Under the pieces are notes generated by a model. It was not told the origin of the DNA, made no database searches, and saw only the letters and a program-made list of their open reading frames with translations. A stretch of DNA of 7,888 nt, from positions 1 to 7,888 of the forward strand of contig JAUZFY010000146.1 in assembly GCA_030840185.1 (NCBI GenBank), given 5' to 3'. The DNA is from Microbacteriaceae bacterium. GTDB lineage: Bacteria; Actinomycetota; Actinomycetes; Actinomycetales; Microbacteriaceae. Shown here one piece after another: positions 1 to 7,888 of this stretch; the first letter of the stretch is position 1, and every line of letters begins with the position of its first letter. Made by a program: the position numbers and the translations under genes.

Positions 1-141
1 AAGAGACTCGGCTTCGACACCGAAATCGAGGAATCCGGGGTGCGATCCCTTCACACTCTCACGCCAACCGAAAAGTGGAATTACGTTCGGATAGAGCCAA
101 GGCTCGTGACCGGACGACGCTTCGTCAGCAGCCGGCGGTAG
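1..141 (+). CDS. C-terminal end of an unidentified protein (partial)
   Basis: The first reading frame is open from the window edge to a TAG at 139-141 and gives 46 residues. About 70% of its codons end in G or C, as expected for a coding frame in this genome, and the stop falls 12 bases before the stop of the convergent stress-protein gene, a normal tail-to-tail arrangement. The visible sequence starts KRLGFDTEIEESG and contains TPTEKWNYVRIEP. A 'RLGF' stretch near the C-terminus followed by a beta strand is common in GNAT acetyltransferases, but this is only a resemblance and I do not recognise the family. The start and most of the gene lie outside the window. Confidence 0.45.
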   Translation, partial: KRLGFDTEIEESGVRSLHTLTPTEKWNYVRIEPRLVTGRRFVSSRR

Positions 142-153
142 TCGCGGTCCGGT

Positions 154-633
154 TCACGGACGTACCACCAGCACCGGGCACGACGCATGATGCACACACT
201 GTTCGGTCACCGACCCGAGCAGCAGACTGGCGAATCCGCCGAGCCCGCGAGATCCGAGCACCAGCATTCGATGCCCCGCGGAGAGACGCAGGAGAGTTTC
301 GGCGGGCTGACCCAGAATGGCAAGGTGCCGGACGGGAACCGACGGATGCTTCGCAACAACCGCGCGCGAATCGGTGATCAGTTGCTCGCGAACGGCTGCG
401 GTGATCTCGTCGAATGACGCGACAAAGCCGCGGTCGAAGAGCGCACCGTGCGGAGCGGTGTCGATGCTCCAACAGCGCACGATCACGACGGGCGCGTTCA
501 AGCCTTCCGCGATGGTCAACGCGGCCTCGAGCGACTTCTTGGATCCGGCGGAGCCGTCATTGCCGACGATGATGCTCTCGGCCGGGATCGTTCCAGGAAC
601 GGCGTTTGCGCTGGTGTTCGGTTGTTCGGACAT
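154..633 (-). CDS. Universal stress protein (UspA family)
   Basis: A 159-residue single-domain universal stress protein, the usual size for the family. After a disordered tail of about 18 residues, IIVGNDGS (21-28) forms the first strand and the adenine-side loop with Asp26. The C-terminal nucleotide-binding signature G-2x-G-9x-G-S is intact: Gly127, Gly130, Gly140 and Ser141, followed by the last strand CPVLVV (152-157). This predicts an ATP-binding cytosolic protein linked to survival under stress or non-growth; the exact role of such proteins is usually unknown. The start at 633 was chosen because AAGAGGA lies 5 bases upstream of it. An ATG at 648 (five residues longer) and a far upstream one at 768 have no good ribosome binding site. 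It is monocistronic here and converges with the fragment at 1-141. Confidence 0.9.
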   Translation of the reverse strand: MSEQPNTSANAVPGTIPAESIIVGNDGSAGSKKSLEAALTIAEGLNAPVVIVRCWSIDTAPHGALFDRGFVASFDEITAAVREQLITDSRAVVAKHPSVPVRHLAILGQPAETLLRLSAGHRMLVLGSRGLGGFASLLLGSVTEQCVHHASCPVLVVRP

Positions 634-733
634 CGGGTTCCTCTTCATTGATGGACCAGTGTTCTCGTAGATCTGGTTCAAGCATGCGGGTAAGAGGAGG
701 TCTGTCGAGCGATCGCCGCCTAATCCCCCACAC

Positions 734-812
734 GAAAACGCAGGAGATTCACCACGGGAGGAGCGCATTCGGCGGACTTTGCCGCGAACGGTGGTGTTTC
801 TCCTGCGTTTTC
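734..812. repeat. 22-bp inverted repeat with 35-base loop
   Basis: The left arm (734-755) reads GAAAACGCAGGAGA-TT-CACCAC and the right arm (791-812) reads GTGGTG-TT-TCTCCTGCGTTTTC. The arms are complementary at 20 of 22 positions, with a perfect outer 14-bp stem, a 2-base mismatch and a perfect inner 6-bp stem. The outer ends are A4 and T4 around a GC-rich stem, so on either strand it looks like a hairpin with a short T run. It lies between two divergent genes, where neither needs a terminator. It could be an interspersed palindromic element, a short terminal-inverted-repeat element or a protein-binding site. The repeat itself is read directly; its nature is inference. Confidence 0.85.
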
Positions 813-869
813 AGTCGGCGGATGGCGCGGCGCGGTCGATCGCCCCGCGAGTCGAACCTGCCACTGCGG

Positions 870-898
870 TTGTCCTCGTGGGTGCTCCCCTCTAGGGT
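870..898 (+). promoter_or_regulatory. Probable promoter of the RibD-C/DHFR-like gene
   Basis: TTGTCC (870-875) and TAGGGT (893-898) are separated by exactly 17 bases, matching the housekeeping sigma pattern of high-GC Gram-positives. Transcription would begin near 905, giving a leader of about 30 nt that contains the GGGAGG ribosome binding site at 926-931. Confidence 0.55.
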
Positions 899-935
899 CG
901 GAGCCAGCGGCACGTGCACTAAACCGGGAGGCCTC

Positions 936-1496
936 ATGGGCAAACTGATCTACTCCGCGATTGCCTCGCTTGACGGGTATGTGGCCGACGAGTCCGGCAA
1001 TTTCGACTGGAGCGAACCGGACGAGGAATTGCACACCTACGTCAACGATCGGGAGCGACCGATCGGCACCTACCTGTACGGGCGGCGGATGTATGACGTG
1101 ATGGTATTCTGGGAATCGGCGCACACGATGACCGCGCTGCCCGCGTTCATCCGGGATTACGCCCAGATTTGGCGGTCGGCGGACAAGATCGTCTATTCAA
1201 GGACGCTTGACGAGGCAGCGAGCACGAAGACTCGTATCGAGAAGCGATTCGATGCTGACGCGGTTCGGCAGTTGAAGTCGTCATCGGAACGAGACATGAG
1301 CGTCGGTGGCCCCGAACTGGCCGGCCGGGCGATAAGGGCCGGCCTCGTTGACGAGATCCACGTGTTCGTCACCCCCGTCGTTGTGGGAGGCGGGAACGGT
1401 TTCCTGCCCGACGGGGTACACCTCACCCTCGACCTCATCGCCGAACATCGGTTCGCAAACGGAGTCGTGCATCTCGGATACCGCGTCACGAACTGA
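936..1496 (+). CDS. Dihydrofolate reductase / RibD C-terminal domain family protein
   Basis: A 186-residue stand-alone protein of the RibD-C / DHFR-like fold (bacterial 'dihydrofolate reductase family protein'). Visible family motifs are the N-terminal strand and loop SLDGYVAD (11-18), LYGRRMYDVM (47-56), and the C-terminal nucleotide-binding region with SVGGPELAGRAI (122-133) and VTPVVVGGGNGFLP (145-158). The family binds NAD(P)H, but the substrates of these short actinobacterial members are mostly unknown, so real folate or riboflavin reduction should not be assumed. The ATG at 936 was chosen because GGGAGG sits 4 bases before it and the family sequence begins there (KLIYSAIASLDG). The frame is open as far back as 606, but that extension looks non-coding. 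It appears monocistronic. Confidence 0.88.
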   Translation: MGKLIYSAIASLDGYVADESGNFDWSEPDEELHTYVNDRERPIGTYLYGRRMYDVMVFWESAHTMTALPAFIRDYAQIWRSADKIVYSRTLDEAASTKTRIEKRFDADAVRQLKSSSERDMSVGGPELAGRAIRAGLVDEIHVFVTPVVVGGGNGFLPDGVHLTLDLIAEHRFANGVVHLGYRVTN

Positions 1497-1630
1497 GGCG
1501 CCCCCCTCGCTCGGCCAACCATCAGCTCGACGGTGCACTTCTTCGATTCAGCGTCCCGGAAAGGCGATCCGCCAAAGGGAGCTGTCCCGAGCGCCCAGGG
1601 TGGCGCACCGAACAACGAGGGACGACGGGG

Positions 1631-1636
1631 TAGCTT
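1631..1636 (+). promoter_or_regulatory. -10 box of a probable leaderless promoter
   Basis: TAGCTT lies at -12 to -7 relative to the A of the ATG at 1643, the spacing expected if transcription starts on the start codon itself. There is no well-placed Shine-Dalgarno sequence (only CGGGG, about 12 bases away). No clear -35 box is present, as is common for such promoters in actinobacteria. Confidence 0.45.
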
Positions 1637-1642
1637 GATCCC

Positions 1643-2089
1643 ATGGATACCTTGTTTACAGTTTTGCACGTCGTCGGAGCAGTCTTCATTGTGGGGCCGA
1701 TGGCGATTCTGCCGATGACCGCCATGCGCGCGCTTCGTTCCGAGAACTACGCCCAGGTGGCAACCCTCGCGAAGTCGACGGCTGTATTCAGCTATCTGTC
1801 CCTCATCGTTTTCGTGCTCGGCTTCGCGGTCCTCGGCATGAGCGCTCCCAAGGACAACCTGTCGTTCACCACCCCGTGGATCCTGATCTCGGTGATCGCG
1901 TATGCGGTCGCCATCGTGCTGAGCCTGGTGGTCGTTGTGCCGGCGATGCGTCGGGCCGCCGAAGCGCCAGCCGGACCGTCCTCCGGGTCTCCTGCTGCGC
2001 CACGGTCGAATGCGGCGGTGAGCGCCGGATCCGGCGTCGTGAGCCTGCTCCTGCTCTTGGTGGTCGTACTGATGGTGTGGAAGCCGTAG
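1643..2089 (+). CDS. Small integral membrane protein, DUF2269-like
   Basis: A 148-residue protein with four hydrophobic segments: about 3-25 (TLFTVLHVVGAVFIVGP), 46-66, 76-100 and 126-146. The opening with a helix carrying LHVVGAVFIVG, the total length and the four-helix layout resemble the DUF2269 family of bacterial inner-membrane proteins of unknown function. A proline-, alanine- and serine-rich linker (about 106-125) precedes the last helix and is probably exposed. The start codon seems leaderless, with a TAGCTT -10 box directly upstream. The gene is alone on its strand and converges with the ROK regulator, with 24 bases between the stops. Membrane location is well supported; the family assignment is moderate and no function is proposed. 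Confidence 0.78.
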   Translation: MDTLFTVLHVVGAVFIVGPMAILPMTAMRALRSENYAQVATLAKSTAVFSYLSLIVFVLGFAVLGMSAPKDNLSFTTPWILISVIAYAVAIVLSLVVVVPAMRRAAEAPAGPSSGSPAAPRSNAAVSAGSGVVSLLLLLVVVLMVWKP

Positions 2090-2113
2090 CGAAAACACAC
2101 GAGGCCCGCAGGG

Positions 2114-3304
2114 CTAGAGTTCCTCCGTCATCGCCCCAATCGACTCTGGCGAGAGGGCGTGATGTAGGGCGAGCACGCTCGCACCGAGAACGGCCGCTTT
2201 TTCGGCCACTCGCGACTGCAGGATCGAAAGGTGCTGCGTGGCCAGCGGCGTCGAACGCTGGTACACGACCTCACGCACGCCGGCGAGAAGGTGCTCGCCC
2301 ACCCGGCTCACGGATCCTCCCAGCACGATCACCGACGGGTTTACCAGGCTGATGCACGTGGTGAGCACTTCGCCGATGTCGCGCCCGGCCTGTCGAACGG
2401 CGCGGATCGCGTCCAGGTCGTTGTGTCGAACCAAATCGGCGACGTCGTTCATATTCGCGACGTCGGCCCCGGTCTCCCGAAGCTGTGCGGCGATCGCCGG
2501 GCCGGATGCCATCGCCTCGAGGCATCCGAAGTTTCCGCACGGGCACGCGACGCCGGAACCACGTTCAATTCGGACGTGGCCGATGTCACCAGCCGAGCCC
2601 TGTGCGCCGCGCTGAAGCGACCCTCCGGAGATTATCCCGGCTCCAATGCCGGTTGCCACCTTTACGAACAGAAGGTCGGTGACATCCGGGAAGGAGCTGG
2701 TCTGTTCCCCGATAGCCATGATGTTCACGTCATTGTCGACAAGGGCCGGCACTCCGAGTTCGCCGAGCACCCAACCGGGAACGTCGAAGCCATCCCATCC
2801 CGGCATGATCGGCGGATTAACCGGTTTTCCCGTGTCGTGCTCGACGGGTCCGGGCAGACCCATCCCCACGGCAAGGAGATCCGCCTCCGTGCGCCCGAGC
2901 TCCCCAAGCAAGCCGCGACTCTCCGTGCCGAACCAGCCGAGAACGGCCTCCGGCCCATCCGCGATGGGGCGGGCCGTACGCCGGGTCAAGAGGATGTCGC
3001 CGGCGAGATCGGCGACGGCGATTGTGGCGTGCGTCGCCCCAAAGTCGGCCCCGATCACCACCCGTGCAGTCGGATTCAGGGCGAACTGCGATGGTGGCCG
3101 TCCGCCGCTGGATGCCGCCCCGCCGGTCGGGCCGATCAGCCCGGTTGCGCGGAGCGCCTCCAGCCGGAGGGCGACAGTGGAGCGGGCGAGTCCGGTGATC
3201 GACGAGAGCTCGGCGCGGGTCCGCGGCTGCCCGTCCCTGAGCAGCTGAAAAATGTCGCTCGCGCCGACAAAGCCGAGCGTGCTGGGCTTTCTGGGGGGCT
3301 CCAT
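2114..3304 (-). CDS. ROK-family transcriptional repressor
   Basis: The protein has 396 residues from this start, typical of ROK repressors with a DNA-binding head. Numbered from the alternative start at 3322 (402 aa), a winged helix-turn-helix covers about 22-64 (RTRAELSSITGLARSTV at 34-50) and a wing follows at 66-80. The actin-like ROK sugar domain begins with GADFGATHATIAVAD (91-105), then GMGLPGPVE (153-161) and VDNDVN (195-200). The family zinc site is complete: His249, Cys260, Cys262 and Cys267 in CPCGNFGCLEA. Asp198 at the kinase catalytic position is present, but the N-terminal head marks it as a regulator. Neither the ATG at 3304 nor that at 3322 has a ribosome binding site; I prefer 3304 because the extra six codons are AT-rich and unusual. 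It diverges from the sugar operon, which it most likely represses until a sugar ligand binds. Confidence 0.9.
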   Translation of the reverse strand: MEPPRKPSTLGFVGASDIFQLLRDGQPRTRAELSSITGLARSTVALRLEALRATGLIGPTGGAASSGGRPPSQFALNPTARVVIGADFGATHATIAVADLAGDILLTRRTARPIADGPEAVLGWFGTESRGLLGELGRTEADLLAVGMGLPGPVEHDTGKPVNPPIMPGWDGFDVPGWVLGELGVPALVDNDVNIMAIGEQTSSFPDVTDLLFVKVATGIGAGIISGGSLQRGAQGSAGDIGHVRIERGSGVACPCGNFGCLEAMASGPAIAAQLRETGADVANMNDVADLVRHNDLDAIRAVRQAGRDIGEVLTTCISLVNPSVIVLGGSVSRVGEHLLAGVREVVYQRSTPLATQHLSILQSRVAEKAAVLGASVLALHHALSPESIGAMTEEL

Positions 3305-3335
3305 ACGGAAAGTAAAGCACATACTGTCGACGAAC

Positions 3336-3347
3336 CGAATAGATTCG
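3336..3347. promoter_or_regulatory. Palindrome CGAATAGATTCG, possible operator
   Basis: The 5-bp arms CGAAT and ATTCG are perfect around a 2-base centre, in the space between the ROK gene and the operon. The centre lies 43 bp upstream of the centre of GACTTAAGTC, close to four helical turns. It may be an auxiliary regulator site or part of the ROK gene's own promoter region. Confidence 0.3.
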
Positions 3348-3370
3348 ACTCACCGACCGACCACTTTTGC

Positions 3371-3398
3371 TTGTGCTTCGACTTAAGTCAGTTACACT
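3371..3398 (+). promoter_or_regulatory. Operon promoter (TTGTGC-16-TACACT)
   Basis: The -35 box TTGTGC is at 3371-3376 and the -10 box TACACT at 3393-3398, with a 16-base spacer. It is the best promoter match in the window and faces the catabolic operon. Transcription from about 3405 would give a 60-nt leader before the first gene. Confidence 0.6.
3380..3389. promoter_or_regulatory. Palindrome GACTTAAGTC, probable ROK operator
   Basis: A perfect 10-bp AT-centred palindrome fills the spacer between the -35 and -10 boxes of the operon promoter, so a bound dimer would block RNA polymerase. Its position beside the divergent ROK repressor makes that protein the likely binder. The palindrome is seen directly; the partner is inferred. 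Confidence 0.5.
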
Positions 3399-3450
3399 CG
3401 TCACAGCGCGAACGGGATGAAGAGAAATTCATCGGCGCCGAACGCAGATC

Positions 3451-3457
3451 AAAGGAG
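3451..3457 (+). promoter_or_regulatory. Strong ribosome binding site that sets the start of the first operon gene
   Basis: AAAGGAG lies 7 bases before the ATG at 3465. The in-frame ATG 48 bases upstream (3417) has no such sequence, so the shorter start is favoured. Confidence 0.85.
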
Positions 3458-3464
3458 ATATTTC

Positions 3465-4211
3465 ATGGCCAGTGGCCCGCTTTCCGTCCAGCTTTACACG
3501 GTGAGGGACGCCCTCGCGGCTGACCTTCCGGGCACGCTCCGTCGAGTCGCGGATCTGGGATATCGCAACGTCGAGCTCTTCGGTTTCGTTGACCTCGCCG
3601 ACAAGTACAGCGAGATCCTCCCGTCCGTGGGTCTTTCCGCTCCTTCCGCTCATGCCCGTCTCATCGGACAAGACACCGCGGCCATTTTCGCCGCCGCACA
3701 GAAGATCGGTATCGTGACGGTCATCGACCCGCACATCGACCGCACCCTGTGGAACGATCGCTCCGACATCGAAAGGCAAGCGGCGCTGCTGAACGAGATT
3801 GCCAAGTCCGGCGCAGATCACGGTCTTCGCATCGGCTACCACAACCACTGGTGGGAGACCGAGTCCCGTATCGACGGGACCACCGCGCTCGAGATCTTTG
3901 CTGACGCCCTCGACCCAGCCGTTGTGCTGGAGGTCGACACCTACTGGGCTGAGGTCGGCGGAGTCTCCGCAATCGATCTGCTTGGTCGTCTCGGGGATCG
4001 AGTTCAGCTCATCCACGTCAAGGATGGTGCGGTCTCGCAAGATGACCAGGACCAGACCGCGGTCGGATCCGGCACGCTCGATGTGCTCGGGATTCTCGCC
4101 GCGGCACCACACGCCCTGCCGGTCGTCGAACTCGACGGCTTCAACGGGGATGTCTTCGACGCGCTCCGCGACAGCTTCAGCTACCTGACGTCGAACGGTG
4201 TGAAGGCATGA
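3465..4211 (+). CDS. Sugar isomerase/epimerase-like TIM barrel protein (short type)
   Basis: A 248-residue xylose-isomerase-like TIM barrel (AP-endonuclease-2 superfamily, with IolE/IolI and the E. coli 3-keto-sugar epimerase YcjR). It opens with SVQLYTVRDAL (7-17), typical of short members. Likely metal-site and acid-base residues are in YHNHWWE (125-131), EVDTYW (156-161, Asp158), IHVKD (183-187, His184) and VELD (221-224, Glu222). Members act on keto/aldo sugars by enolisation: isomerisation, epimerisation, dehydration or hydration, usually with Mn2+ or a similar ion. It is the first operon gene, with a strong AAAGGAG site, and its stop overlaps the next start by ATGA, implying translational coupling. 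In a 3-keto-sugar route it could be the hydratase, eliminating enzyme or epimerase. Fold assignment is firm; the reaction is not known. Confidence 0.88.
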   Translation: MASGPLSVQLYTVRDALAADLPGTLRRVADLGYRNVELFGFVDLADKYSEILPSVGLSAPSAHARLIGQDTAAIFAAAQKIGIVTVIDPHIDRTLWNDRSDIERQAALLNEIAKSGADHGLRIGYHNHWWETESRIDGTTALEIFADALDPAVVLEVDTYWAEVGGVSAIDLLGRLGDRVQLIHVKDGAVSQDDQDQTAVGSGTLDVLGILAAAPHALPVVELDGFNGDVFDALRDSFSYLTSNGVKA

Positions 4212-5314
4212 GCCGCGCCGGACGGGTCGGCGTCGGTGTCATCGGAGCCGGAGTCATCAGCTCTCAGTACCTCGATAACCTCACGGTCTTCCCAGACCTG
4301 GAGGTGCTGTTCGTCGCCGACATCGATCTGGACCGCGCGAGCGCGCAAGCGGCCAAGTACGGCATCCCGGGCAGCGGAACGGTTGCAGAGCTTCTTGCCA
4401 ATCCGGACATCGAGATTGTCGTAAACCTCACCATTCCCGCCGCGCACGTCGAGGTGGCACTTCAGGCGCTGGCCGCAGGCAAGAACGTGTGGACCGAGAA
4501 GCCCTTCGCCCTCGATCGCGAGAGCGGTCGGAAACTGCTGGACGAGGCCGACCGGCTCGGGCTGCGTGTCGCGACCGCGCCGGATACCTTCCTCGGTGCC
4601 GGGCTGCAAACCGCCCTTCGCCTCATGGCCGAGGGAGCCATCGGAACGCCACTGACGGCCCTCGCACTCATGCAGTCCCCCGGGCCGGATTCGTGGCATC
4701 CGAATCCCGAGTTCCTCTTCCAGGAGGGCGGCGGACCGCTGTTCGACATCGGCCCGTACTATCTCACCACGCTCGTTCAGGCCTTCGGGCCGGTGCGAAG
4801 GGTGACGGCGGCCCAGTCGACATCCCGAGCGGTTCGAGTAATCGGATCCGGCCCGCGCGCCGGCACCCAGTTCGATGTGACGGTCCCGTCCCATCACAGC
4901 GCCCTCCTCGACTTCGAGAACGGCGCTTCCGCGCAGGTGATTTTCAGCTTCGAGTCGCATCGCAAGCGCACCGGATTCATCGAGGTTTCCGGCACCAAGG
5001 CAACCATCGAGTTGCCTGACCCGAACAACTTCGACGGTGACTCGGTGATCTTCGACGAGGCGAACGAAGACGGGAAGACCGTGGAAGCGGTTGGGTCCAT
5101 TTCGAGCCGCGGTACCGGTGTGGCGGAGCTCGCGCAATCGATCCGCGCCGGCCGACCGGAACGGGCAGCGGGCGCGCAGGCATTCCATGTTCTCGACATC
5201 ATGGTGTCAATTTCCGAGTCGGCTCGTCTCGGCGAGTCGGTTCCCATCACGAGCAGCTTCACCAAGGCTCCCCCGGTTCCTGAGGGCTGGGATCCCAAGG
5301 TGGCAACGCTGTGA
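4208..5314 (+). CDS. Gfo/Idh/MocA-family NAD(P)-dependent oxidoreductase 1
   Basis: The protein has 368 residues. The N-terminal Rossmann domain has GVIGAG (10-15), and Asp38-Asp40 at the end of strand 2 are placed to select NAD over NADP. EKP (97-99) supplies the conserved lysine. The C-terminal domain contains GGGPLFDIGPYY (174-185): at the usual D-x3-H catalytic site Asp180 is kept but the histidine is replaced by Tyr184, as I recall for a recognised Gfo subgroup carrying 'GPYY'. Such enzymes oxidise or reduce a sugar hydroxyl/ketone, often at C3. It starts inside the stop of the previous gene (ATGA) and ends 12 bases before oxidoreductase 2. Paired with that enzyme, it may do the opposite redox step (for example final ketone reduction) and recycle the cofactor; this role is inference. 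Confidence 0.92.
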   Translation: MSRAGRVGVGVIGAGVISSQYLDNLTVFPDLEVLFVADIDLDRASAQAAKYGIPGSGTVAELLANPDIEIVVNLTIPAAHVEVALQALAAGKNVWTEKPFALDRESGRKLLDEADRLGLRVATAPDTFLGAGLQTALRLMAEGAIGTPLTALALMQSPGPDSWHPNPEFLFQEGGGPLFDIGPYYLTTLVQAFGPVRRVTAAQSTSRAVRVIGSGPRAGTQFDVTVPSHHSALLDFENGASAQVIFSFESHRKRTGFIEVSGTKATIELPDPNNFDGDSVIFDEANEDGKTVEAVGSISSRGTGVAELAQSIRAGRPERAAGAQAFHVLDIMVSISESARLGESVPITSSFTKAPPVPEGWDPKVATL

Positions 5315-5326
5315 TGAGCCTCTGAG

Positions 5327-6424
5327 GTGGGATCGCGCACACCACTAGGGGTGGGATTTATTGGTGCCGGCTTCATGGCCACGGTGCACAGCCGGGCCGC
5401 GAGATCCGACGGTGCGATCCTCGCCGCCGTGGTCACCTCTGGCGGGGCGGGTTCTGCCCGCGTCGCCGAGGCCCTCGGGTTCGAACGCTCGTACGACTCG
5501 GCCGAGCAACTGCTGGCGGATGATGACATTCAGGTTGTGCACATCGTCACACCGAACGTCACGCATTTCGAGTTCGCCCTCGCGGCGCTCGATGCCGGAA
5601 AGCATGTCGTGTGCGAGAAACCGCTGACGACTAACACCGAGGATGCCCGGACGCTGGTCGCGGCCGCCGCGGGCGCGGGCGTGTCGGCCACCGTGCCGTT
5701 CGTCTACCGCTTCCATCCGATGGTGCGGGAGGCACGTGCACGGGTTCGCTCCGGGGAGACCGGCGCGCTGCTGAGCATTCAGGCGAGCTACCTTCAGGAC
5801 TGGCTTCTCGAGCCTTCCGACGACAATTGGCGGGTCGATAAGAACGTGGGTGGCCCGTCCCGCGCGTTTGCCGATATTGGGTCGCACCTGTGCGACCTGC
5901 TTGAGTTTGTGACGGGCGACCACATCGCTCGGGTGCAGGCGGTCACCAAAACGGTGTTCGCCGATCGGGCAATGAACCGAACGGTGACAACCGAAGACCT
6001 CGCAGCAGTCCTGCTCGAGACTCGCGGCGGCGTCGTCGGCACTCTTCTCGTGTCGCAGGTCGCGCCCGGTCGAAAGAACCGACTGCAATTCGAGATCTCC
6101 GGAGCCGAGCAGACCGTTGAGTTCAATCAGGAGGATCCCGAGTCGCTATGGCTTGGGCGCCGTCAGGGTTCTCAACTGTTGCGCCGCGATCTCGAGTTGA
6201 GCGCCGATGCCATGCGCCTCTCGGTGCTTCCGCCGGGGCATCCGCTCGGGTATCAAGACGCGTTCAACGCGTTTATCGCGGACAGCTATGCGAACGTGCG
6301 CGGTGAACCGCGCGATGGTCTTCCGACCTTCGAGGACGGGCTGCGCGCCGTGATTATCACCGACGCAGTGCTCGAATCAGCAGCAACAGACTCATGGGTC
6401 GTAGTAGAAGAGGAATCCGCATGA
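5327..6424 (+). CDS. Gfo/Idh/MocA-family oxidoreductase 2, levoglucosan-dehydrogenase-like
   Basis: The protein has 365 residues. The nucleotide-binding loop is GFIGAGFM (10-17), followed by CEKPL (96-100). The C-terminal domain has YLQDW (155-159), WRVDKNVGG (168-176) and a classical catalytic DIGSH (183-187, Asp183 and His187). The combination of YLQDW, an 'SWR..K' segment and DI.(S/T)H matches my memory of levoglucosan 3-dehydrogenase and its relatives, which oxidise C3 of a pyranose with NAD+. I could not align sequences, so this is a subfamily suggestion. The start is a GTG at 5327: a stop at 5315-5317 blocks any longer form, and no strong ribosome binding site precedes it. A second GTG at 5351 would remove the strand before the glycine motif and is less likely. 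The 3' end overlaps the next gene by ATGA. Confidence 0.9.
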   Translation: MGSRTPLGVGFIGAGFMATVHSRAARSDGAILAAVVTSGGAGSARVAEALGFERSYDSAEQLLADDDIQVVHIVTPNVTHFEFALAALDAGKHVVCEKPLTTNTEDARTLVAAAAGAGVSATVPFVYRFHPMVREARARVRSGETGALLSIQASYLQDWLLEPSDDNWRVDKNVGGPSRAFADIGSHLCDLLEFVTGDHIARVQAVTKTVFADRAMNRTVTTEDLAAVLLETRGGVVGTLLVSQVAPGRKNRLQFEISGAEQTVEFNQEDPESLWLGRRQGSQLLRRDLELSADAMRLSVLPPGHPLGYQDAFNAFIADSYANVRGEPRDGLPTFEDGLRAVIITDAVLESAATDSWVVVEEESA

Positions 6425-7452
6425 CCGACGATGTGAAGGCAGACCAGACGCATCCAATCACCCTGTTTACCGGGCAGTGGGCGGACTTGCCGCTCGAGGA
6501 GGTCGCCCGATACGCGAGCGAGTGGGGCTACGACGGCCTCGAGATCGCCTGCTCCGGAGAACATCTCGATGTGTGGCGGGCTGCGGAGGACAAGACCTAC
6601 CTACAGGGACGCCTCGACATCCTCGATCGTTACGGACTGAAGGTCTTCGCGATCTCCAATCACCTCAAGGGCCAGGCGGTCTGCGACGATCCGATCGACT
6701 TCCGCCACGAGGCGATAGTCGGATCCCGGGTATGGGGCGACGGCGAAGCCGAGGGCGTCCGGCAGCGTGCCGCCGCGGAGATGAAGCTCACCGCGACAGT
6801 GGCGCGCAAGCTCGGCGTCGATACCGTCGTCGGGTTCACGGGTTCAAAGATCTGGCCGTACGTGGCCCAGTTTCCCCCGGTCCCCGCCGCAGTATTCGAG
6901 GCGGGATACCAGGACTTCGCCGATCGTTGGAACCCCATTCTCGACGTCTTCGACGACGAGGGCGTGCGGTTCGCGCACGAGGTGCACCCGAGCGAGATCG
7001 CGTACGACTACTGGAGCACTGTTCGCTCTCTCGAGGCGATCGGAAACCGGCCCGCATTCGGGCTCAACTGGGATCCGAGCCACATGATGTGGCAGGACAT
7101 CGATCCGGTTGGTTTCATTGTGGACTTCGCGGACCGCATCTATCACGTGGACTGCAAGGACACTCGCTTGCGACCGAAAAACGGCCGAGCGGGAGTGCTG
7201 GGATCGCACCTGCCGTGGGGCGATCCGCGCCGCGGCTGGGATTTCGTCTCGACCGGGCACGGGGACGTGCCGTGGGAAGACTCCTTCAGAGCCCTCGAGT
7301 CGATCGGATACTCCGGCCCGATTTCTATCGAGTGGGAATACGCGGGCATGGATCGCCTGCACGGTGCTAAGGAGGCGATCGGATTCATCCGCTCGCTTCT
7401 GTGGAAGCGTCCTACGACGTCATTCGACGCGGCATTCAGCAACCAGGAATGA
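6421..7452 (+). CDS. Sugar isomerase/epimerase-like TIM barrel protein (long type)
   Basis: A 343-residue xylose-isomerase-like TIM barrel, about 95 residues longer than the first operon gene and of a different subgroup. Probable metal ligands are Glu187 (AHEVHPSEIAYD), Asp218 and His221 (NWDPSHMMWQ), His242 (YHVDCKD) and Glu304 (SIEWE), the E-D-H-E pattern of the superfamily. Extra segments, including 84-118 with VWGDGEAEG and 250-280 with HLPWGDPRRGWDF, probably cover the active site. The start at 6421 was chosen because AAGAGGA lies 7 bases upstream and the ATG overlaps the preceding stop (ATGA); an in-frame ATG at 6394 lacks a site. Long members occur beside Gfo dehydrogenases, and related barrels in C-glycoside and levoglucosan breakdown eliminate or hydrate 3-keto sugars. 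That role is plausible here but unproven. Confidence 0.88.
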   Translation: MTDDVKADQTHPITLFTGQWADLPLEEVARYASEWGYDGLEIACSGEHLDVWRAAEDKTYLQGRLDILDRYGLKVFAISNHLKGQAVCDDPIDFRHEAIVGSRVWGDGEAEGVRQRAAAEMKLTATVARKLGVDTVVGFTGSKIWPYVAQFPPVPAAVFEAGYQDFADRWNPILDVFDDEGVRFAHEVHPSEIAYDYWSTVRSLEAIGNRPAFGLNWDPSHMMWQDIDPVGFIVDFADRIYHVDCKDTRLRPKNGRAGVLGSHLPWGDPRRGWDFVSTGHGDVPWEDSFRALESIGYSGPISIEWEYAGMDRLHGAKEAIGFIRSLLWKRPTTSFDAAFSNQE

Positions 7453-7567: not shown

Positions 7568-7888
7568 ATGAAAATTAGAACCATTGCAGCAGTAGCAACG
7601 GTAGCGGCCGTCCTCGTCGCGACCGCCGCGTGTAGCTCGGGGGGCACGGCCTCCACGAGCAGCAGCGGTACCGCCGGCAAAACGCTCACCTACTGGGCGA
7701 GCAACCAGGGAACCAGCATCGCGAACGACACTGCGGTGCTCACCCCGGAGCTTGCCAAGTTCAAGAAGCAGACCGGGATCACCGTCAAGCTCGAGGTCAT
7801 CGGATGGAACGACCTGCAGACGCGCATTCAGTCCGCTGTGACCTCAGGGCAGGCGCCCGACGTGGTCAACATCGGAAACACCTGGGCG
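7568..7888 (+). CDS. ABC sugar transporter substrate-binding lipoprotein (N-terminal part)
   Basis: The frame is open from an ATG at 7568 to the window edge, 107 residues, preceded by AAGGAAG with a 5-base spacer. The protein has an n-region KIR, a hydrophobic core (6-21) and a lipobox-like end VATAAC with Cys22, followed by a Ser/Gly/Thr-rich tether (23-36). This is a lipoprotein signal, although threonine at -3 of the lipobox is less usual than leucine or valine. Mature sequence begins TLTYWASNQGTS (38-49), then FKKQTGITVKLEVIGWNDLQTRIQSA and SGQAPDVVNIGNTWA, typical of family-1 (maltose/multiple-sugar) extracellular solute-binding proteins that bind mono- or oligosaccharides outside the membrane. 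Permease genes are expected beyond the window. It presumably imports the substrate of the upstream operon, though specificity cannot be read here. Confidence 0.9.
   Translation, partial: MKIRTIAAVATVAAVLVATAACSSGGTASTSSSGTAGKTLTYWASNQGTSIANDTAVLTPELAKFKKQTGITVKLEVIGWNDLQTRIQSAVTSGQAPDVVNIGNTWA

Follow-up and report, generated by a model that had tools for sequence, protein, structure and literature searches.

Gene content and layout

The window, i.e. the whole stretch of 7888 bases analysed here, is a complete contig of a Microbacteriaceae genome (1.81 Mb in 360 contigs, 65% complete) and carries an operon of four genes, referred to as TIM1, DH1, DH2 and TIM2, which code for two barrel proteins and two oxidoreductases (Table 1). 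A preliminary description had assigned the four enzymes to a 3-keto-sugar pathway resembling that by which levoglucosan, a sugar from burnt biomass, is degraded. It is rather probable that the operon serves the cleavage of a glucoside in two modules, with oxidation by DH1, elimination by TIM1, hydration by TIM2 and reduction by DH2. The observed gene order, protein families, residue conservation, structural neighbours, and tree and neighbourhood patterns are described below. Families, residues, structural neighbours and neighbourhoods support C3 oxidation, beta-elimination, hydration and two redox steps, which possibly recycle nicotinamide adenine dinucleotide (NAD), and also a substrate other than those studied, as had been suggested. 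The start of the pathway with DH2, levoglucosan as the substrate and a route like that of YcjQRS from Escherichia coli, which were also part of the proposal, are not favoured.

All four genes were found where the earlier description had placed them and are tightly coupled, with overlaps of four bases (ATGA) between TIM1 and DH1 and between DH2 and TIM2, and a gap of 12 bases between DH1 and DH2. The two barrels indeed differ from each other (no significant BLASTP similarity, E 0.16), as do the two oxidoreductases (28% identity over the aligned part), in which PF01408 occurs together with PF22725/PF02894. The regulator and the sugar-binding lipoprotein described before flank the four genes.

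Table 1. Genes and features of the window and their predicted functions (ABC, ATP-binding cassette; aa, amino acids; HTH, helix-turn-helix).
Feature	Position	Strand	Remarks
ROK-family regulator	2114..3322	-	402 aa, divergent from the operon; PF00480 192.4 bits; N-terminal HTH match below the Pfam cut-off
Conserved promoter-proximal block, candidate ROK operator or promoter core	3363..3389	+	densest invariant columns of the intergenic alignment
TIM1, predicted 3-keto-glycoside beta-eliminase (lyase)	3465..4211	+	248 aa, PF01261
DH1, predicted glycoside C3-dehydrogenase (first redox step)	4208..5314	+	368 aa, Gfo/Idh/MocA, PF01408/PF22725
DH2, predicted 3-keto-glucose reductase (last redox step), LgdC-like	5327..6424	+	365 aa, Gfo/Idh/MocA
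TIM2, predicted 2-hydroxy-3-keto-glucal hydratase	6421..7452	+	343 aa, PF01261, ATG at 6421
Sugar-binding lipoprotein of an ABC transporter	7568..7888	+	PF01547; 3' part lost at the contig end (7888)

The predicted lyase and hydratase

TIM1 matched the solved structures of AtOGE from Agrobacterium tumefaciens (8bvk, E 1e-13) and 8tcd/8tcs (E 3e-13). The residues H132, H134, E161 and H189 of AtOGE, of which His134 is catalytic and the other three belong to the metal site, align with H126, H128, E156 and H184 of TIM1; the three histidines are invariant in 53 rows, and E156 is kept in at least 90%. Residues E37, H63 and E222 are likewise invariant in these rows and match E39, H66 and E233 of AtOGE by position only, the printed alignment covering AtOGE 120-225 only. 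In the structure comparison, the model of TIM1 was nearest to 3-keto-beta-glucopyranoside-1,2-lyases, and nearer to lyases than to epimerases or IolE. TIM1 is thus predicted to be a 3-keto-glycoside beta-eliminase.

TIM2 is close to SCO6571 (2zds, E 4.9e-161), called a 'putative DNA-binding protein' in the structure entry released in 2008. It is also related to AtHYD of A. tumefaciens (8ro4), which bears the name 2-hydroxy-3-keto-glucal hydratase; the match spans residues 15-335 of a query of 342 residues, with E 2.6e-42. TIM2 therefore looks like a 2-hydroxy-3-keto-glucal hydratase, and if this is true, a role is suggested for SCO6571 as well. The evidence for AtHYD was called preliminary by its own authors (PMC10628242). 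One residue, which weighs against this reading, points to a difference: the His of the HxKD motif of AtHYD (FHVKD), which TIM1 shares (HVKD), is replaced by Asp243 (HVDCKD; numbering from the 342-residue translation starting at 6424) in TIM2 and in 84 of 84 homologues, although this His is not known to be defining. Metal or substrate binding in the SCO6571 group may differ from that of AtHYD. The report on a levoglucosan pathway variant of Paenarthrobacter places a protein group called LgdB3 in Actinobacteria and Proteobacteria, and never alongside LgdB2 (PMC10066097); TIM2 probably belongs to this group.

Order of the redox steps and competing readings

DH2 does contain the motifs YLQDW (155) and DIGSH (183), which had been taken to favour this enzyme as the first dehydrogenase. 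Residues K98, D183 and H187 of DH2 and K98, D180 and Y184 of DH1 were conserved in 39/39 rows each (rows were kept if found and long enough, which gave 35 for TIM1 and 39 each for DH1, DH2 and TIM2, window included). DIGSH cannot separate the two roles, because a corresponding His is named for both LgdA (H193) and LgdC (H185) in PMC10066097. In a maximum-likelihood tree of 100 oxidoreductases, whose rows were hand-picked from the loci and in which YcjS of E. coli forms a long branch, LgdA constitutes a separate clade of 17 rows (100/99), and DH1 falls into a clade of 26 rows (91/100). The DH2 clade (48 rows, 100/99) includes 13 of the 15 second oxidoreductases that accompany LgdA in its loci. 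Both the tree and the gene neighbourhoods thus place DH2 with the second oxidoreductase of the levoglucosan operons; the designation LgdC-like is based on gene neighbourhood.

Nine independent LgdA loci, collected without using TIM2, comprised six above the cut-off of the levoglucosan dehydrogenase model NF052479 in 297 genomes of the order and three from 14 plasmid records; seven of the nine LgdA proteins scored 699-748 bits. The identity of LgdA to DH2 was 30-32%. A DH2-family gene was present in five of them (L118 50%, L121 44%, L122 43%, L126 49%, and two copies with 37-39% in L125) and a TIM2-family gene in three (L121 83%, L122 80%, L126 76%). Nine more LgdA-type loci, obtained with TIM2 as bait, all contained an LgdB1 candidate, a DH2-family gene and TIM2. 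A 'putative quinol monooxygenase' is encoded near the levoglucosan dehydrogenase on Arthrobacter (L126, 10193-10468), Deinococcus (L125, 12750-13049) and Metabacillus plasmids (L124, 6597-6887).

Among the 80 TIM2-bearing loci, which were the best of 589 by TIM2 similarity so that conservation of TIM2 is inflated, 38 contained all four families within +/-10 kb, more than expected by chance, and in 25 of these the genes were contiguous in the order of the window. Cultivable relatives such as Lacisediminihabitans profunda (L008) and Leifsonia sp. Root227 (L011) possess the same operon. Nine loci were of the LgdA type, 15 carried an epimerase-like barrel, and several of the 18 others were short contigs. 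TIM1 and DH1 were adjacent in 37 of the 38 quartet loci (22 with a 4-base overlap) and DH2 and TIM2 in 33 (12 with overlap), gene ends having been set by a script and not by a gene caller. A TIM1 match (E<=1e-25) was found in 74 of 150 genomes of the family and in 7 of 198 across the phylum, the source genome being counted in both. In 40 loci chosen from the 74 genomes, DH1 (at least 45% identity) was present in 38, DH2 (at least 40%) in 20, including a 71-bit partial match in L177, TIM2 (at least 60%) in 20, and all four genes in 12. A broader search of 21 of these loci, in which known relatives served as queries (E<=1e-4) and diverged genes may be missed, revealed TIM1 and DH1 only in ten, one of which (L175, a 6-kb contig) may be truncated, and TIM1, DH1 and DH2 without TIM2 in six. 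Relatives of DH1 (about 40-44%) were also seen paired with a ThuA-domain gene on two Rhizobiaceae plasmids and in Priestia (L127 7959-9730, L128 7950-9709, L129 7184-9053), where ThuA may replace the TIM1 lyase.

Since a lyase of the TIM1 type needs a 3-keto substrate, DH1 is its natural oxidant where it is the sole detectable redox gene. The steps common to all such operons are the last ones, hydration of 2-hydroxy-3-keto-glucal and reduction of 3-keto-glucose, so that a shared finishing pair is the best interpretation of DH2 and TIM2. DH1 is therefore probably the first enzyme, gene neighbourhoods being the main argument, and the redox roles of DH1 and DH2 are probably opposite to those proposed at first.

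From these patterns we infer the individual reactions, together with the cofactor, the class of substrate and the direction in which each redox enzyme works, as follows. A glucoside would be imported by the ABC transporter, and its glucose would be released without hydrolysis. In the front end, the glucosyl residue would be oxidised at C3 by DH1 with NAD(P)+. Removal of the acidified C2 proton by TIM1 would then expel the aglycone by beta-elimination, yielding 2-hydroxy-3-keto-glucal. In the finishing module, TIM2 would add water to form 3-keto-glucose, which DH2 would reduce to glucose, giving back the cofactor that DH1 had consumed. The substrate or the product would be the signal for the ROK protein. 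Since DH2 and TIM2 belong to families that also occur next to the levoglucosan dehydrogenase gene, the cluster has the appearance of a common finishing module with an exchanged front end.

Several observations weigh against this pathway or its order of steps. Where a locus has DH1 alone, the gene for the oxidant or for a second reductase could be situated in another part of the genome. Four of the nine independent LgdA loci lacked a DH2-family gene and six lacked TIM2, and L123 combines LgdA with a TIM1-DH1 pair (39% and 50%), neither DH2 nor TIM2 being detected there. Two DH2-like copies of Deinococcus (L125) stand just outside the 48-row clade (98/93). In 15 of the 80 loci, TIM2 occurs with a psicose-epimerase-like barrel without TIM1 or LgdB1, and 14 of these have DH2; the one such barrel that was scored (L030) reached 99 bits against a cut-off of 300 for D-psicose-3-epimerase. 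With regard to the order of steps, Tyr184 of DH1 takes the place of a His in the closest solved relatives, and as a tyrosine presumably stands there in the 3-ketoreductase KijD10, DH1 could be a reductase. The NF052479 model scored DH2 (188.5 bits) above DH1 (47.1 bits; cut-off 650). Furthermore, in the quartet-like locus L130 DH2 is replaced by a Gfo protein with 37% identity to LgdA and 33% to DH2, and a Gfo protein nearer to LgdA also takes the place of DH2 in L184, L187, L199, L201, L205 and L208. In L123, the levoglucosan dehydrogenase operon and the TIM1-DH1 pair (563-2538 and 9929-13231) lie within 8 kb. The 15 loci with the epimerase-like barrel (L030, L032, L034-L036, L040, L045, L049, L052, L053, L057, L064, L067, L068 and L074) carry, by cluster, ribose-type transporter genes and represent a third front end for TIM2.

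Another reading, which is possible but which we hold to be somewhat doubtful, regards TIM1 and DH1 as a complete glycosidase of the GH4 type split into two genes, and DH2 and TIM2 as a portable finishing cassette used by several unrelated front ends. DH1 would then oxidise C3 of the glycoside and later reduce 3-keto-glucose, recycling its own cofactor, while TIM1 would both eliminate and hydrate. The front ends would be TIM1 with DH1, LgdB1 with LgdA, and the psicose-epimerase-like barrel, and new 3-keto-sugar pathways would evolve by a swap of the front pair. In PMC13273386, a Bacteroides thetaiotaomicron lyase was used as a variant deficient in hydration; by implication, its wild type can also hydrate, and TIM1 alone might therefore suffice in the two-gene loci.

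It is unlikely that the same pathway runs in the order first proposed, with DH2 as the C3-dehydrogenase and DH1 as the terminal 3-ketoreductase. This order would agree with the Lys-Asp-His set of DH2, with its score for the levoglucosan dehydrogenase model, with the levoglucosan dehydrogenase structure 6a3f (LGDH) as the second-best solved relative of DH2, and with the replacement of DH2 by Gfo proteins nearer to LgdA. A tyrosine presumably also occupies the place of Tyr184 in the 3-ketoreductase KijD10, for which the structure of a Y186F mutant exists. A tyrosine is likewise found in glucose-fructose oxidoreductase and dihydrodiol dehydrogenase, and both redox directions are thus possible. 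Against this order stand the His shared with LgdC, the grouping of DH2 with the second oxidoreductases of LgdA loci instead of with LgdA, and DH1 as the regular partner of the lyase, including the ten loci in which it is the sole detectable Gfo gene.

A remodelling as in E. coli, by which a 3-keto sugar is made, epimerised by a barrel and reduced to a different glycoside without cleavage of a bond, is very improbable. YcjQ, YcjR and YcjS are annotated as guloside 3-dehydrogenase, 3-dehydro-guloside 4-epimerase and glucoside 3-dehydrogenase and are encoded beside ABC transporter genes; by annotation, they share 3-keto glycoside intermediates, a Gfo enzyme, a barrel and the transporter with the window, and TIM2 homologues accompany epimerase-like barrels in the 15 loci mentioned. 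The E. coli enzymes perform an epimerisation and not a cleavage, however, TIM1 showed no significant BLASTP similarity to YcjR, and YcjR fell far under the lyases in the structure comparison with TIM1. Inositol or rare-sugar (Iol-type) catabolism by dehydrogenases and inosose dehydratase or isomerase barrels can hardly apply. In its favour, all four proteins gave weak matches to IolG/IolE models, and IolE structures were level with AtOGE for TIM1, about 4 to 5 Z units under the lyases. The scores, however, were far below the cut-offs (TIM1 34.9 and TIM2 36.2 of 290 bits; DH1 60.2 and DH2 123.9 of 355), so that the refuting outcome named in the preliminary description, a clear grouping with Iol families, did not occur.

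Regulation, transport and comparison with known systems

A ROK gene (at least 40% identity) was present in 30 of the 38 quartet loci. The block at 3363-3389 is conserved in an alignment of five ROK-TIM1 intergenic regions and may represent the operator or promoter core; inverted arms occur in one of the five only (L008). By eye, TTGTGC (3371-3376), which overlaps the block, and TACACT (3393-3398) behind it form a putative promoter-like pair with 16-base spacing. A contig of a Microbacteriaceae metagenome-assembled genome (L007) is 97-99% identical to the window from the ROK gene through the binding protein and extends beyond its end. There, the binding protein is complete (439 aa from the same ATG; best solved match Lin1841, 5ysb, E 2.7e-28) and is followed by two permease genes (PF00528). 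The SBP_bac_1 type of this binding protein and its best, though distant, match to Lin1841 suggest a glycoside or a short oligosaccharide as the substrate. Glycoside hydrolases (GH) near other loci differ (GH3 in Deinococcus L131, GH2 in L197, GH36 in L198). On pSymB of S. meliloti, a long stretch without listed gene (L140, 8972-11593) lies between a TIM1-like gene and ABC transporter genes, and its minus-strand frames appear GH2-like by eye.

The source genome contains four PF01261 and 11 PF01408 matches (ten above the cut-off), of which two each lie in the window. The two further barrels are encoded at 1-6862 of another of its contigs (L006, G000:C26), together with a Gfo oxidoreductase, a mannitol-dehydrogenase-family gene and a LacI regulator; the ends appear by eye enolase-superfamily-like and UxaC-like, and this cluster looks like hexuronate catabolism.

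No paper on the TIM1-DH1-DH2-TIM2 set was found in an open-access library, most hits being judged from their listing. If the two-module pathway is true, non-hydrolytic sugar cleavage is common in this family, as the frequency of TIM1 matches indicates, and is hidden under the label 'sugar phosphate isomerase/epimerase'. A barrel-Gfo pair with HNH and K-D-Y would then mark the substrate-specific half, and a SCO6571-type barrel with its Gfo protein the common half. It would become directly testable which natural glucosides are used by these bacteria in a non-hydrolytic way.

The levoglucosan pathway of B. smithii (LgdA-LgdB1-LgdB2-LgdC), described as oxidation, elimination, hydration and reduction (PMC7676230), resembles the window in its two Gfo enzymes and two PF01261 barrels, and DH2- and TIM2-family genes also occur in some of the LgdA operons seen. 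It differs in that DH1 (25-27% to LgdA) and TIM1 (24-29% to LgdB1 candidates, which were assigned by position beside LgdA and length only) stand in place of LgdA and LgdB1, and in the Rbs-type transporter genes of the LgdA operons. No LgdA was detected in the window at the 650-bit cut-off and no LgdB1-type eliminase (TIM1 has 29% identity over 146 aa to an LgdB1 candidate), and the 65% complete genome contained no NF052479 match above the cut-off. Judged by the scores of DH1 and DH2 for this model, levoglucosan is an unlikely substrate.

For glucosides, the four-step chemistry has been published in A. tumefaciens (PMC10628242). The AtOGE, AtHYD and Gfo operon with GlycDH (8bvk, 8ro4) shares the aligned metal and catalytic residues of its lyase with TIM1; in contrast, its first dehydrogenase is a flavoenzyme, whereas the candidate of the window is a Gfo protein. 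The lyases BT1 and AL1 of Bacteroidota (8tct, 8tcd, 8tcr) are the nearest functionally titled structures to TIM1, but they belong to a different phylum and show 22-26% identity in structure alignments. While the B. thetaiotaomicron lyase apparently also hydrates (PMC13273386), the operon of the window possesses a separate candidate for the hydratase.

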